Origin: Candidatus Hodarchaeota archaeon
GTDB lineage: Archaea > Asgardarchaeota > Heimdallarchaeia > Hodarchaeales > Hodarchaeaceae
Direction of reading: 5' to 3'
Assembly (NCBI GenBank): GCA_016840035.1
Contig: JAEOTC010000038.1
Coordinates: forward strand, 1 to 64,000
Length of the DNA stretch: 64,000 nt
The position numbers and the translations under genes were made by a program. The notes beneath the pieces are model-generated. The model searched no databases and was not told the origin of the DNA. It saw only the letters and a program-made list of their open reading frames with translations. Shown here piece after piece: positions 21,674-28,535 of this stretch (position 1 is the first letter of the stretch; each line of letters starts with the position of its first letter).

Positions 21674-23443
21674 ATGAGAGAAATAGTTAAAAAATTTCCC
21701 CAAAGGATGGACGCACGAATGAACGAATATCCAGCCACTGTGAACGTCTCCCCTCCACACGGACACTCACCCATGTATGTTATGCACAAATTTTTTGGGA
21801 GAAAACAAGAAAGACTGATCAATCATTATATAAGGACATTTACACAAGACGAGGGAGAAATTGTCTTAGATCCATTTTGTGGGAGCGGAGTTACCTTAGG
21901 TGAAACCCTAAGACTAAAAAGGAAGGCTATAGGAGTAGATATTAATCCTATTTCCGTATTTGTTACAAGAAATACACTCACCTTTATTTCTGGAAAAAAA
22001 ATCTTAGAGGAATTTAAAGCAATAGAAAATGACTTAAAAAATGAAATTTCCAATTTATATAAAACTACATGCTCTAAATGTGGAAAAAAAGTTACAGCAA
22101 TTTGTTTTTCTTGGCAAGATTCTAACCTATACGATAAACGCTACTTCTGCTCTCAAGATGGTAAGAGAGTAGAAAAAACAGACTTTAAAGATATTGAACA
22201 GTACAATGGAATTAGAAGTTATTTTGAAAACGAGTTTAATAATCTTAATGAATCCAGTACTTATTGGTTTCCTAAAAATCCTCTCTATTACTCTAATGGG
22301 AGGGCTTTTCTTAAGAAGGAGAGGTATAATCATATACATGAACTTTTCACGAAAAGGAACATAGCAAGTCTTGCCTTACTTCTTCATAGAATTAACCAGA
22401 TATCTCCACAAGACCTTCGGAGTTCCTTTCTCTTTGCTTTTTCTAGTATGGTCCACCTAGCTTCGAAGATGACCCCAGTCAGGCCAACAAGACCTTTTAG
22501 TTCTTCTTGGATTCAACCGAGTTACTGGTATTGCCCTCATAATATGGAATCAAATGTTTGGGAGCTATTTGAGCGTGCCATCATCGGTAAACAGGGATTA
22601 TTAAAGGCAAAACGGGATTTAAATAGAAAAATACAGAATATTAAAAAAGTAAACACTTTTTCTGAGCTAGAAACATCCCCTAATCCAACCTATTTTCTGA
22701 TCAATACTGATATTACAAGATTAACTCAAATTCCTGAGAATTCAGTCGATTACGTAATTACTGATCCTCCTTATGGACATTCCATTCAATATGGTGAGCT
22801 ACTATATCTATGGGGATCATGGTTGAATGTTGTGAACGATTACAATGAGACTTTTCAGGATGAAATTATAATTAACCATAGACAAGACAAGAGTATTTCT
22901 GAATATGAATCACTGTTGAAACTGGCTTTAAATAAGATATATCTGACTCTGAAACCAGATAAATTCTGTACAATCACATTTCATAGTCCAAATCTCACAA
23001 TTCGAAATCTATTATATCGTTCAGCAATTCAGACTGGATTTATTTTTGATGAACTTGTCTTTCATGCCCCAGCACGAGCATCAGCTAAAAGTCTTCTTCA
23101 ACCTGCAGGATCTCAACAAGGAGATTTCTTCTTTCACTTTAAAAAGCCATTAAAGAAATTAAAACAAGTATTCCAACCTATTACAGGAGAAGAGCTAGAA
23201 AAATGGATAGTGGAAATCGTTAAAGATATCATAGTTAAGGAAGAAAATCCCTTGCCTTATAATCAAATACAAAATAAATTAGATCCGTTTTTATATGAAA
23301 AATTGTATAAATCCAAACTTCTGTTGAATTTCAATCCTAAGGAAGTTAAAAAAACTTTAAAGAAATACATTGGTATAGAATTTTCACTTTTCGAGAACCC
23401 AGATGGTAAATCTAAGAATGATATTCTTTGGGGGCTTGTTTGA
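21674..23443 (+). CDS. Orphan DNA methyltransferase (N4/N6 amino-type) with zinc-finger insert
   Basis: The 589 residues contain the SAM-binding motif LDPFCGSGVTLGETL (about 66-80), then the DxNP-like VDINPISVFVTRN, and in the C-terminal half the catalytic TDPPYGHSIQYGELLYLW. That motif order marks a beta-class or COG1743-like DNA methylase. Between the motifs lies a Cys4-type finger, CSKCGKK followed by CSQDG. No restriction gene is next to it. It may be a regulatory orphan methylase or part of a lost defence locus. The N-terminal HKFFGRKQERLINHYI is typical of this family. Confidence 0.82.
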   Translation: MREIVKKFPQRMDARMNEYPATVNVSPPHGHSPMYVMHKFFGRKQERLINHYIRTFTQDEGEIVLDPFCGSGVTLGETLRLKRKAIGVDINPISVFVTRNTLTFISGKKILEEFKAIENDLKNEISNLYKTTCSKCGKKVTAICFSWQDSNLYDKRYFCSQDGKRVEKTDFKDIEQYNGIRSYFENEFNNLNESSTYWFPKNPLYYSNGRAFLKKERYNHIHELFTKRNIASLALLLHRINQISPQDLRSSFLFAFSSMVHLASKMTPVRPTRPFSSSWIQPSYWYCPHNMESNVWELFERAIIGKQGLLKAKRDLNRKIQNIKKVNTFSELETSPNPTYFLINTDITRLTQIPENSVDYVITDPPYGHSIQYGELLYLWGSWLNVVNDYNETFQDEIIINHRQDKSISEYESLLKLALNKIYLTLKPDKFCTITFHSPNLTIRNLLYRSAIQTGFIFDELVFHAPARASAKSLLQPAGSQQGDFFFHFKKPLKKLKQVFQPITGEELEKWIVEIVKDIIVKEENPLPYNQIQNKLDPFLYEKLYKSKLLLNFNPKEVKKTLKKYIGIEFSLFENPDGKSKNDILWGLV

Positions 23444-25290: not shown

Positions 25291-25839
25291 TTAGTCTAAT
25301 TCTACATCACATGAACCTTGAGTTGTAGATATAAAGGATTTTGACTTGGAAATTAGAGACTGTAAAAACTGAGTTAATTTTTCCCTATTGAGAGTCTTAA
25401 ATTCATGAAGGGAGAGATTCAGATTGGCTAGATCGTCATTGATAGCACTTTGTGTCTCGGAATCAATTTTACCTATACTAATGAAAACTGGTTGTACGTC
25501 TACAGTGTCATAAAGATGTTTAAATAGTGCATAATCTCTTTTTACTTCATTGAAGTATTTTATATCCATTTTGTCGAAGATGTAGATCATACCAATTGAA
25601 CCATGGAAATCTCTCAAACGAGAATTATTGATTTGGCTTTCCAAGTGCAATCTTTTAAGATGAAGTCGAACTAAAACGCTATTAATTTCAATTCGTCTCT
25701 CGGTGAGGGAATTCGATTGAAGTGAATTTACCTCAATGTCTCCTAACTCTAACATGAAATTCCTAACTAATTCGGGAGGAGAGCCAGCTATTGAAATCTT
25801 AAAAGGAAATTCTCTTCTAAGCATAAGAAGAACAACCAA
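25291..25839 (-). CDS. Degenerate small-GTPase-like protein lacking the P-loop
   Basis: The 182 residues follow the Ras/Rab/Arf layout: strand FKISIAGSPPELVRNFMLEL where the P-loop should be, a middle strand, then GMIYIFDKMDIKYFNEVKRDYALF where Ras proteins have the strand before switch-distal helix alpha3, and QPVFISIGKID in place of the NKxD motif. The GxxxxGKS lysine and the Asn of NKxD are missing, so GTP binding is doubtful. The family assignment is by pattern only. A tandem longin-like gene converges with it, which suggests a regulator/partner pair. Confidence 0.5.
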   Translation of the reverse strand: MVVLLMLRREFPFKISIAGSPPELVRNFMLELGDIEVNSLQSNSLTERRIEINSVLVRLHLKRLHLESQINNSRLRDFHGSIGMIYIFDKMDIKYFNEVKRDYALFKHLYDTVDVQPVFISIGKIDSETQSAINDDLANLNLSLHEFKTLNREKLTQFLQSLISKSKSFISTTQGSCDVELD

Positions 25840-25900: not shown

Positions 25901-26176
25901 TTAACAACATTGGCTAGACTTCTCAGGTAAATGGAGAATCTTACGAATTTTTTTACGAACCACGCTTGACACACACCCACATCCGTGAGGGTGAGCTAGT
26001 ATTGCATCTTGGGGACATTGTAGTGCGCATGCTCCACATTCAATACACTTCTTCTCCTCGATTATTTCTGCTTTATTATCTTTATTTAAAGTAATAATTT
26101 GATGTGGACAAACATCTAAGCACCAAGAACATCCATTACATCGCTCTACAAATATGACTGCAACCATTTCTATCAC
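25901..26176 (-). CDS. hgcB: HgcB-like 2x[4Fe-4S] ferredoxin
   Basis: The 91 residues carry two classic clusters, CNGCSWCLDVCPHQ and CIECGACALQCPQD. A histidine/cysteine tail follows (AHPHGCGC) and the C-terminus ends SSQCC. Two CX2CX2CX3C motifs plus a terminal vicinal cysteine pair are the hallmark of HgcB, the ferredoxin that reduces the HgcA corrinoid in mercury methylation. It starts 3 bases after the HgcA-like gene, so the two form a translationally coupled pair. Without that neighbour it would be called a generic ferredoxin. Confidence 0.78.
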   Translation of the reverse strand: MIEMVAVIFVERCNGCSWCLDVCPHQIITLNKDNKAEIIEEKKCIECGACALQCPQDAILAHPHGCGCVSSVVRKKIRKILHLPEKSSQCC

Positions 26177-26179
26177 ATC

Positions 26180-27850
26180 TCAAACTAATAGGTGTTTAAT
26201 ATCATTTTCAATTAGTGGTATGATTATTGCTATAAGACAAAGTATCACTGCGGGTATCATAAATAATGTGAGGTCACTTTCAACATCTAGATGATTTGTA
26301 TAAGGTGTATTTCCAGCAAGATCTAGAACTATGAATATACTTACCACAGATGTCAGAGCTATCCAAAATATTACCGTGAACAATGAATCAGTTTTTCCTT
26401 GTGTAATTAGGAGGAGAATCGTCCCAAAGATATTAAGTGTTGCCATCACAAGGCCCTTCTTAAAGAAAGAGGATGTGAAATCGAAAAATGGATAAAACCA
26501 GATAAATGCAAAATTTGTCACCAATCCAATAATTAAGAGCTGTAAAACAACAACAACCCAAAATGAGGTCAAAGGAATTTGTATAACCGCTAAAATTCCA
26601 AGAATCAATAATAAGGGTAAGAAAAGAACACAACCGACGAAAAAAGCGTGTTGAATTCCCATAAGAGTTCTAAAGGGAACATTAAATGTGATTCTGGAGC
26701 TTTCAGGTTCTTTAGTGTATAATTTCAAGAAGGAATTTATATCTCCGATATCTACAGGCCCAAAATTAGGTTTCCATCCAGCTTTAGCCAATACTTTGCG
26801 ATCTACTCCCGTTGCTGACAGTTGGGGTAAAATAAGTGAAGAATGATCAATATGATCTCTGAGATTAAATAATCTAATTGCTTCTAATATTTGTGTATGC
26901 GTAAAATGGCCTCCGCCTGCGGCACACCAGACATTGATACCATCAGAATCAATGATCAACAAAAAACAATCAATTTTTTCTTTACAAAGTGTATTATAGA
27001 CCGAATTCACAGTCCAATAGTAATTCGCGGTTACAATTACTGGTGAAGATCTTTGAGGAGTCCCAATTCGATATAATCCAGGTATGATACTTTTTCGTGT
27101 GAATATTCCATTGATAATGCAGTATCCCGTCTTAAGTCGTGGAAACTGGCCAAGAAGAGATTCCAAGGAAGAATATTCTGTAGTTATTGCGGAGGTATCT
27201 TTCAGTTTTGTTACTTCAAACAATTTCACGGTATTCTTTTTATACAACAGAGTGTATTCAAAAAGGTGAGAAAGCTTTCTTTCTAGGTTCTTAACCGGAG
27301 ATGTTGAAGATATGTCTTTGAAGATGGATATCTGATCACGTACGAAATTAGAAGTGGAAAACTTAAGTTTAGAGAATCTAGATACCGGAGTAGTGTCAGC
27401 TGCAAGATAAAATATTCCTTCATCTTTAAGAAATTGATCGATTTGTTTTAAGAATAACTTTTGTTGTAAAGATGAAAATTCAGAGAGTGCAAATGTAGAA
27501 ATTATAAAATCAAACTTTCCAGAGCTCCCTAAACGCTCAATAATTGAACTTGAGAGAAAATTACCTTGAAGAAATTCAACCCTAGTACTTTCTTGCCTTG
27601 CTGTCTCTTTTGCGAAGTCTATCATTTCCTCTGAGATGTCAATAGCAATAACCTCATGGCCTTGCTGCGCAAGATCAAGTGATAAACGTCCAGTTCCAGA
27701 ACCAATCTCAAGCACACGTCCCTGCTTACTAATTCTAGATTTTATCACGTCGTATATTAATTCGGCCTCTGGAAATTTCTTTTTAAACTCCAGATCATAA
27801 GTTTGAGGATCTTTTTCCAAAGCTTTCATATAAACAAGAGACATGGTCAA
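26180..27850 (-). CDS. hgcA: SAM methyltransferase fused to HgcA-like corrinoid membrane protein
   Basis: The 556 residues have three zones. Residues about 30-160 are a class I SAM methyltransferase (GRVLEIGSGTGRLSLDLA, VIAIDISEEMIDFA). Residues about 240-395 match HgcA: GLYRIGTPQRSSPVIVTANY, then the cap-helix cobalt-ligand motif NVWCAAGGG (306-314), then LILPQLSATGVDRKVLAKAGW and FGPVDIGD. Residues about 400-550 are five or so membrane helices ending near LDLAGNTPYTNHLDVESDL. HgcA carries the methyl group on a corrinoid and passes it to Hg(II). Canonical HgcA has NVWCAAGK; here the lysine is glycine. Normal HgcA is about 340-400 residues, so the N-terminal methyltransferase is an extra fusion. 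Confidence 0.78.
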   Translation of the reverse strand: MTMSLVYMKALEKDPQTYDLEFKKKFPEAELIYDVIKSRISKQGRVLEIGSGTGRLSLDLAQQGHEVIAIDISEEMIDFAKETARQESTRVEFLQGNFLSSSIIERLGSSGKFDFIISTFALSEFSSLQQKLFLKQIDQFLKDEGIFYLAADTTPVSRFSKLKFSTSNFVRDQISIFKDISSTSPVKNLERKLSHLFEYTLLYKKNTVKLFEVTKLKDTSAITTEYSSLESLLGQFPRLKTGYCIINGIFTRKSIIPGLYRIGTPQRSSPVIVTANYYWTVNSVYNTLCKEKIDCFLLIIDSDGINVWCAAGGGHFTHTQILEAIRLFNLRDHIDHSSLILPQLSATGVDRKVLAKAGWKPNFGPVDIGDINSFLKLYTKEPESSRITFNVPFRTLMGIQHAFFVGCVLFLPLLLILGILAVIQIPLTSFWVVVVLQLLIIGLVTNFAFIWFYPFFDFTSSFFKKGLVMATLNIFGTILLLITQGKTDSLFTVIFWIALTSVVSIFIVLDLAGNTPYTNHLDVESDLTLFMIPAVILCLIAIIIPLIENDIKHLLV

Positions 27851-27953: not shown

Positions 27954-28535
27954 CTAATCTAATTCCTTAATCGCATTATACCGGTAACAATTTGTTACAT
28001 GATCATTAACCATACCTATCGACTGCATATAGGCATAACAAATAGTAGGCCCTACAAAATTAAACCCACGCTTCTTTAGATCTTTACTAATTTCTTCTGA
28101 AAGGGGAGTCGATGCAGGAAGCTCAGAAAGTGATTTGAAACGATTATGAATCGGTTTAAATTTCACAAAGGACCAAATATATTCGTTAAAAGAATTAAAC
28201 TCTTTTTGTACTTCAATGAACATCTGTGCATTATTAATTGCACTCTTTACTTTCAGTTTATTTCGTATGATTCCTTTGTCTTCTATTAGGCGGGAGAAAT
28301 CCTGATCTGTAAATTGAGCTACCTTTAGAACGTCAAAATTAGCGAATGCTTTACGGTACCCATTCCGACGTTTTAAGATGGTTGCCCAACTTAACCCAGC
28401 TTGTGCTCCTTCCAATATCAATAATTCAAATAATTCCAGGTCATCATGTACAGGTACTCCCCATTCTTTATCATGATAATCACGCATTAGCTTATCCTCT
28501 CCGGCCCATTCACATCGTTCTACCTTCTTACCCAC
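27954..28535 (-). CDS. tag: DNA-3-methyladenine glycosylase I
   Basis: This repair enzyme excises 3-methyladenine from DNA. The 193 residues carry the full Tag pattern: a zinc-site cysteine in CEWAGEDKLMRDYHDKEWG, VHDDLELFELLILEGAQAGLSWATIL with the helix-hairpin-helix region, RNKLKVKSAINNA, FNFVGPTICYAYMQSIGMVNDH and the zinc ligands HVTNCYRY. It is a bacterial-type enzyme, uncommon in archaea, so acquisition by transfer is likely. Alone on its strand. Confidence 0.92.
   Translation of the reverse strand: MGKKVERCEWAGEDKLMRDYHDKEWGVPVHDDLELFELLILEGAQAGLSWATILKRRNGYRKAFANFDVLKVAQFTDQDFSRLIEDKGIIRNKLKVKSAINNAQMFIEVQKEFNSFNEYIWSFVKFKPIHNRFKSLSELPASTPLSEEISKDLKKRGFNFVGPTICYAYMQSIGMVNDHVTNCYRYNAIKELD

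Follow-up and report, generated by a model that had tools for sequence, protein, structure and literature searches.

We analyzed a window of 64,000 nucleotides from contig JAEOTC010000038.1 of a Candidatus Hodarchaeota archaeon. On the minus strand of this window, a gene that joins a methyltransferase to an HgcA-like corrinoid protein is followed by a gene for a small ferredoxin. Their features are:

26180-27850, minus strand: CpaM-HgcA fusion, a single open frame of 556 amino acids from a TTG.
27206-27844, minus strand: CpaM-like class I SAM methyltransferase domain (aa 3-215; NF043040 and PF13649), with a probable ATG start at 27844.
27689-27715, minus strand: SAM-binding motif I, VLEIGSGTG (aa 46-54), from conservation in 47 fusions.
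26702-27103, minus strand: HgcA-like corrinoid-binding domain (aa 250-383; PF03599, NF040863, and NF043039).
26912-26935, minus strand: cap motif NVWCAAGG (aa 306-313), with C309 invariant and a glycine where canonical HgcA has a lysine.
26210-26680, minus strand: five-helix membrane domain (aa 391-547), from AlphaFold2 helices; the match to the HgcA profile reaches aa 548.
25901-26176, minus strand: HgcB-like two-[4Fe-4S] ferredoxin (91 amino acids; NF040864), with two CxxCxxCxxxC motifs.
25973-25984, minus strand: GCGC motif of the ferredoxin (aa 65-68), which aligns with GVGC of canonical HgcB.
25904-25909, minus strand: C-terminal CC of the ferredoxin (aa 90-91), from the translation and the alignment.

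The fusion is more likely to be 554 amino acids long, from the ATG at 27844, than to start at the TTG, because its homologues begin at this ATG, two codons inside the open frame. The methyltransferase domain matches PF13649 (2.9e-18), and across 47 aligned fusions G50 and G52 are invariant and G54 and D71 are nearly so. PF03599 (the CdhD/CFeSP domain) matches aa 257-374 (5.3e-16). AlphaFold2 modelled the whole chain with a mean pLDDT of 89.6 and a pTM of 0.86, and predicted membrane helices at aa 391-422, 429-451, 462-483, 490-514, and 520-547; the least confident stretch is the cap (pLDDT below 50 at aa 310-312). The top fold match in the PDB is 9a0b (4.9e-11), which is a published integrative model of HgcAB and not a crystal structure. 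An earlier note on this DNA had placed a methyltransferase, an HgcA-like corrinoid domain, and a membrane domain in one protein, and the Pfam and NCBIfam profiles and the predicted structure agree.

The ferredoxin's open frame follows that of the fusion after 3 bases, and its probable start is the ATG at 26167. It scores 66.3 bits (1.6e-18) against the HgcB profile (NF040864), which is under the cut-off of 99 bits. It has the HgcB features of two 4Fe-4S motifs, conserved cysteines, a C-terminal CC, and an adjacent hgcA-like gene, so the earlier description of a closely coupled ferredoxin with two such motifs and a terminal CC was accurate. The terminal CC is also present in canonical HgcB and in the ferredoxins of other Asgard fusions; the ferredoxins of Chloroflexota and of split loci in our alignment lack it.

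Three other genes in the window deserve mention. Directly upstream of the fusion is a DNA-3-methyladenine glycosylase I (Tag; 27954-28535, minus strand), which is kept in two genomes of the same genus (80-81% identity) and was not seen at the G042 locus. As it is conserved beside the fusion only in the window and those two genomes, we read this as local synteny and dropped Tag as a functional partner. Downstream of the ferredoxin, an orphan of 182 amino acids (25291-25839, minus strand) has relatives at 45-48% identity in two same-genus genomes and no family match. The third (21674-23443, plus strand) encodes a 589-residue DNA methyltransferase-like protein that is weakly similar to the DUF1156 anti-phage family.

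The earlier note had proposed looking for the fusion in other Asgards. Among 228 genomes of the phylum that we searched, about 60 have it at or near full length, so it is a large family and no oddity of one genome. At the loci that we read, the ferredoxin gene lies directly 3' of the fusion except where the contig ends. That the source is a metagenome-type genome in 293 contigs would fit an assembly or binning artefact, and an assembly join had been named as a possible refutation. However, about 60 independent genomes share this head-to-tail arrangement, with the ferredoxin in dozens of them, and the two closest fusions (67-69% identity) are from the same genus as the window. The fusion is therefore no assembly join, and we consider an artefact next to impossible.

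Chloroflexota also carry a CpaM-HgcA fusion. In Desulfobacterota, Spirochaetota, one Myxococcota bin, and other Asgards, the methyltransferase is a separate upstream gene. The corrinoid tree speaks against one common origin of all the fusions (AU p = 0.026). One origin for the Asgard fusions is compatible with that tree (AU p = 0.08) and is favored by the methyltransferase tree (support 96/98). Some genomes have two copies: G051, from the same genus as the window, has both a fusion with an arginine in the cap and a split CpaM/HgcA-like pair (L007 and L147), and two copies are also present in several Loki genomes. One frame from Desulfobacterota (L214, 3182-4828, minus strand) has CpaM, HgcA-like, and ferredoxin domains in one chain; the N-terminus of its CpaM domain is incomplete near the contig end.

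Is the window protein HgcA? It has the cap cysteine and, in the predicted model, the five-helix membrane domain of HgcA, and its similarity to the HgcA profile (NF040863) is significant (166.7 bits, 6.9e-49). This is well below the cut-off of 275 bits, which no protein from any of 224 Asgard genomes passes. Canonical HgcA has the cap N(V/I)WCA(A/G)GK, which NVWCAAGG does not fit. In our alignment, 25 of 26 canonical HgcA proteins have the lysine, against none of 63 paralogues; the window protein has glycine instead, as had been noticed from the letters. Two proteins above the HgcA cut-off (L182 and L184) have NVWCAAGA in place of the GK ending, so even within the HgcA clade the cap lysine has exceptions. 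In trees of canonical HgcA and CpaM-linked proteins, with no Thermococcales or further fused HgcAB sequences among them, a branch with 100/100 support has canonical HgcA on one side and the window protein on the other, with the CpaM-linked proteins. With CdhE as the outgroup, support for the HgcA clade is 96 and the window protein groups with the CpaM-linked proteins with support of 82; placing it as the nearest sister of HgcA survives an AU test (p = 0.07).

The corrinoid iron-sulfur protein (CFeSP; CdhE/AcsC, PF03599) has a homologous corrinoid domain. It has no membrane domain, and its methyl group comes from a pterin. The cysteine equivalent to C309 is invariant in HgcA and in the paralogues, whereas CdhE has S, T, or A at this position. 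The cap cysteine and the membrane domain rule out CFeSP, and the profile cut-off and the tree rule out true HgcA. By these sequence comparisons, the window protein has a closer kin in HgcA than in CFeSP, and it is a CpaM-linked HgcA-like paralogue from a sister family rather than HgcA. The earlier label of HgcA-like thus holds as a statement of kinship and not of identity. A place outside the HgcA clade had been thought to count against the idea; the protein does fall outside that clade in the tree, but on the HgcA side of CFeSP.

The fused methyltransferase is a member of the CpaM family ("corrinoid protein-associated methyltransferase", NF043040), as judged from its profile match and its partner. 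It matches NF043040 at 6e-35 and 120.6 bits; this is under the cut-off of 180, but no other named methyltransferase family comes near it over this domain. The Asgard fusions are under the cut-off (121-131 bits), while split copies score 256-275 bits and one Chloroflexota fusion scores 268. The link to an HgcAB-like corrinoid protein that characterizes CpaM takes the form of a fusion in the window.

One near relative is the split system curated in NCBIfam as CpaM (NF043040) with an HgcAB-like fusion protein (NF043039), which has the same methyltransferase and corrinoid-membrane protein and groups with the window in trees. At the split loci, the HgcAB-like protein scores 371-458 bits (cut-off 285). 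The window protein scores 204 bits (3.7e-60) against NF043039, under that cut-off, and its ferredoxin is a separate gene. In the NF043039 system, CpaM is separate and the ferredoxin is fused to the HgcA part, whereas in the window CpaM is fused and the ferredoxin is separate and ends in CC.

At every HgcA-like locus that we examined with intact upstream sequence, CpaM is fused or adjacent. Because many of these loci were found by using the fusion as the query, we also inspected loci that were selected by the HgcA profile alone, blind to CpaM. CpaM was present at all of those with intact upstream sequence, one of which encodes a CpaM-HgcA-ferredoxin chain. In contrast, CpaM was beside none of 32 canonical hgcA loci (within flanks of about 1.5 kb), which bears out the earlier statement that canonical HgcA lacks the methyltransferase. 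The methyltransferase and corrinoid trees have 24 of 46 splits in common (the mean for shuffled trees was 0.19). For purified HgcAB, the methyl donor is SAM, and the reaction runs through Co(I) and a methylcob(III)alamin with a thiolate ligand (PMC11588087). Since the linkage is nearly without exception and HgcAB itself uses SAM, the fused domain quite probably moves a methyl group from SAM to the corrinoid. The earlier suggestion that SAM feeds the corrinoid is therefore well supported, if by inference.

For the acceptor, clues come from gene neighborhoods in relatives. The operon in Lokiarchaeia runs arsR (divergent), acr3, cpaM-hgcA, hgcB, a small CxC protein, and sometimes an arsC-like gene. 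By contig search, 20 of 39 Loki loci have ACR3 within about 5 kb upstream of the fusion (by position, a count by eye gave about 17 of 40 Loki-family genomes), and ArsR is nearby in 25 of the 39. With about one copy of ACR3 per genome, about 0.1 would be expected by chance. In Thorarchaeia, ArsR is near the fusion at 4 of 6 loci, with its gene directly upstream. An ArsC-like gene is present at six fusion loci. The CxC-motif proteins (90-150 amino acids) lie downstream of the ferredoxin at L069 (4248-4598, plus strand) and at 16 further Loki loci; a representative had no match in Pfam or NCBIfam, and they are possibly thioredoxin-like metalloid handlers. In place of ars genes, several Chloroflexota fusions (L108, 3555-5000, and related loci) are accompanied by an upstream TetR regulator and by a thioredoxin-like (seleno)lipoprotein.

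These neighbors point to the chemistry of a thiophilic metal(loid), with arsenic as the first candidate. No ArsR, ACR3, or ArsC gene is present at the window locus or in the flanks seen in three relatives, and the ArsR-ACR3 pair of the window genome is on another contig. For the window locus itself, the substrate is therefore inferred, and the arsenic reading rests on kinship and on the retention of the CC-ended ferredoxin.

We next consider mercury. Canonical hgcAB, too, has ArsR, acr3, and arsC among its neighbors, and in one strain it is under the control of an ArsR protein (PMC7438021, PMC10349881), so such a neighborhood is compatible with mercury as well. The window genes might then encode a divergent but genuine mercury methylase, which would pass a methyl group from SAM through the corrinoid to Hg(II) to form methylmercury, with the methyltransferase fused for efficiency. 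The likeness to HgcAB (NF040863, NF040864) is real: the domain order from the corrinoid domain onward, NVWCAAG with its invariant lower-ligand cysteine, the five membrane helices, the downstream ferredoxin with GCGC and CC, and the best fold match. But HgcAB has no methyltransferase domain or neighbor, has the cap lysine, and forms a separate clade, and no protein in the 224 Asgard genomes reaches its cut-off. Also, the Desulfobacterota genomes G228 and G229 contain canonical HgcA (466-472 bits) together with a CpaM-linked paralogue, as G263 and G309 probably do, which argues for different functions. Finally, there was no methylation of mercury by Pyrococcus furiosus (PMC8261052), a species with a fused HgcAB homologue. 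We consider a mercury methylase improbable, and mercury an unlikely acceptor in general. Of the options raised in the earlier note, a divergent or non-mercury system fits best.

A corrinoid could also deliver the methyl group from SAM to something that is not a metal(loid), such as a thiol, a lipid-soluble cofactor, or another corrinoid protein. The split and Chloroflexota forms have neither the CC pair nor ars neighbors, the window's clade also lacks ars neighbors, and a lipophilic acceptor could bind the membrane domain. This is hard to square with the ars operons of Loki- and Thorarchaeia or with the CC-ended ferredoxin that the window's clade keeps, and we think it somewhat unlikely.

Alternatively, the methyltransferase domain might itself have arsenite or some other small molecule as its substrate, in the manner of ArsM, and a second, separate step would fall to the corrinoid domain. 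ArsM has the same class I SAM fold, and the window's relatives share its arsenic operon setting. However, the methyltransferase domain of the fusions has no conserved set of ArsM-type cysteines, which is why we rejected direct methylation of arsenite by this domain; it has a corrinoid partner; CpaM is linked to the corrinoid protein even in lineages without ars genes; and the two trees are congruent. We view this alternative as very improbable.

Overall, we lean towards the view that the CpaM-HgcA fusion and its ferredoxin methylate a thiophilic metal(loid) from SAM. The N-terminal CpaM domain would bind SAM and methylate the Co(I) center of the corrinoid in the neighboring domain, where Cys309 would be the lower cobalt ligand, as in HgcA. 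Low-potential electrons from the ferredoxin would return the cobalt to Co(I), and the CC pair at the end of the ferredoxin might pass on a thiol-bound soft substrate. From the corrinoid, the methyl group would go to the thiophilic metal(loid), for which trivalent arsenic is the likeliest candidate, and this would serve detoxification at the membrane. A metal(loid) of some kind is the slightly favored acceptor, and arsenic specifically is a tentative assignment. It is rather doubtful that Asgards have a membrane-bound, cobalamin-dependent route for methylating arsenic, in which the methyl group of SAM reaches trivalent arsenic through the corrinoid; such a route would be chemically distinct from ArsM, and mercury methylation by HgcAB would be a relative of it that acts on a different soft element.

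Fused HgcAB paralogues have been used to root HgcA trees. In the open-access literature (most subscription papers were outside our scope), we found no description of CpaM, the CpaM-HgcA fusion, or its Asgard arsenic operons. The split CpaM system is already known from its curation in NCBIfam; what is new is the fused form and, in Asgards, its placement in arsenic operons.

A sister family with its own SAM methyltransferase bears on what HgcAB evolved for. A paralogue that physically carries a SAM methyltransferase is genetic support for SAM as the donor. Surveys should not score Asgard HgcA-like genes as mercury methylators. The placement of these genes in arsenic operons, in the archaea that are closest to eukaryotes, leads to a testable hypothesis: the ancestral or sister function may be metalloid detoxification.
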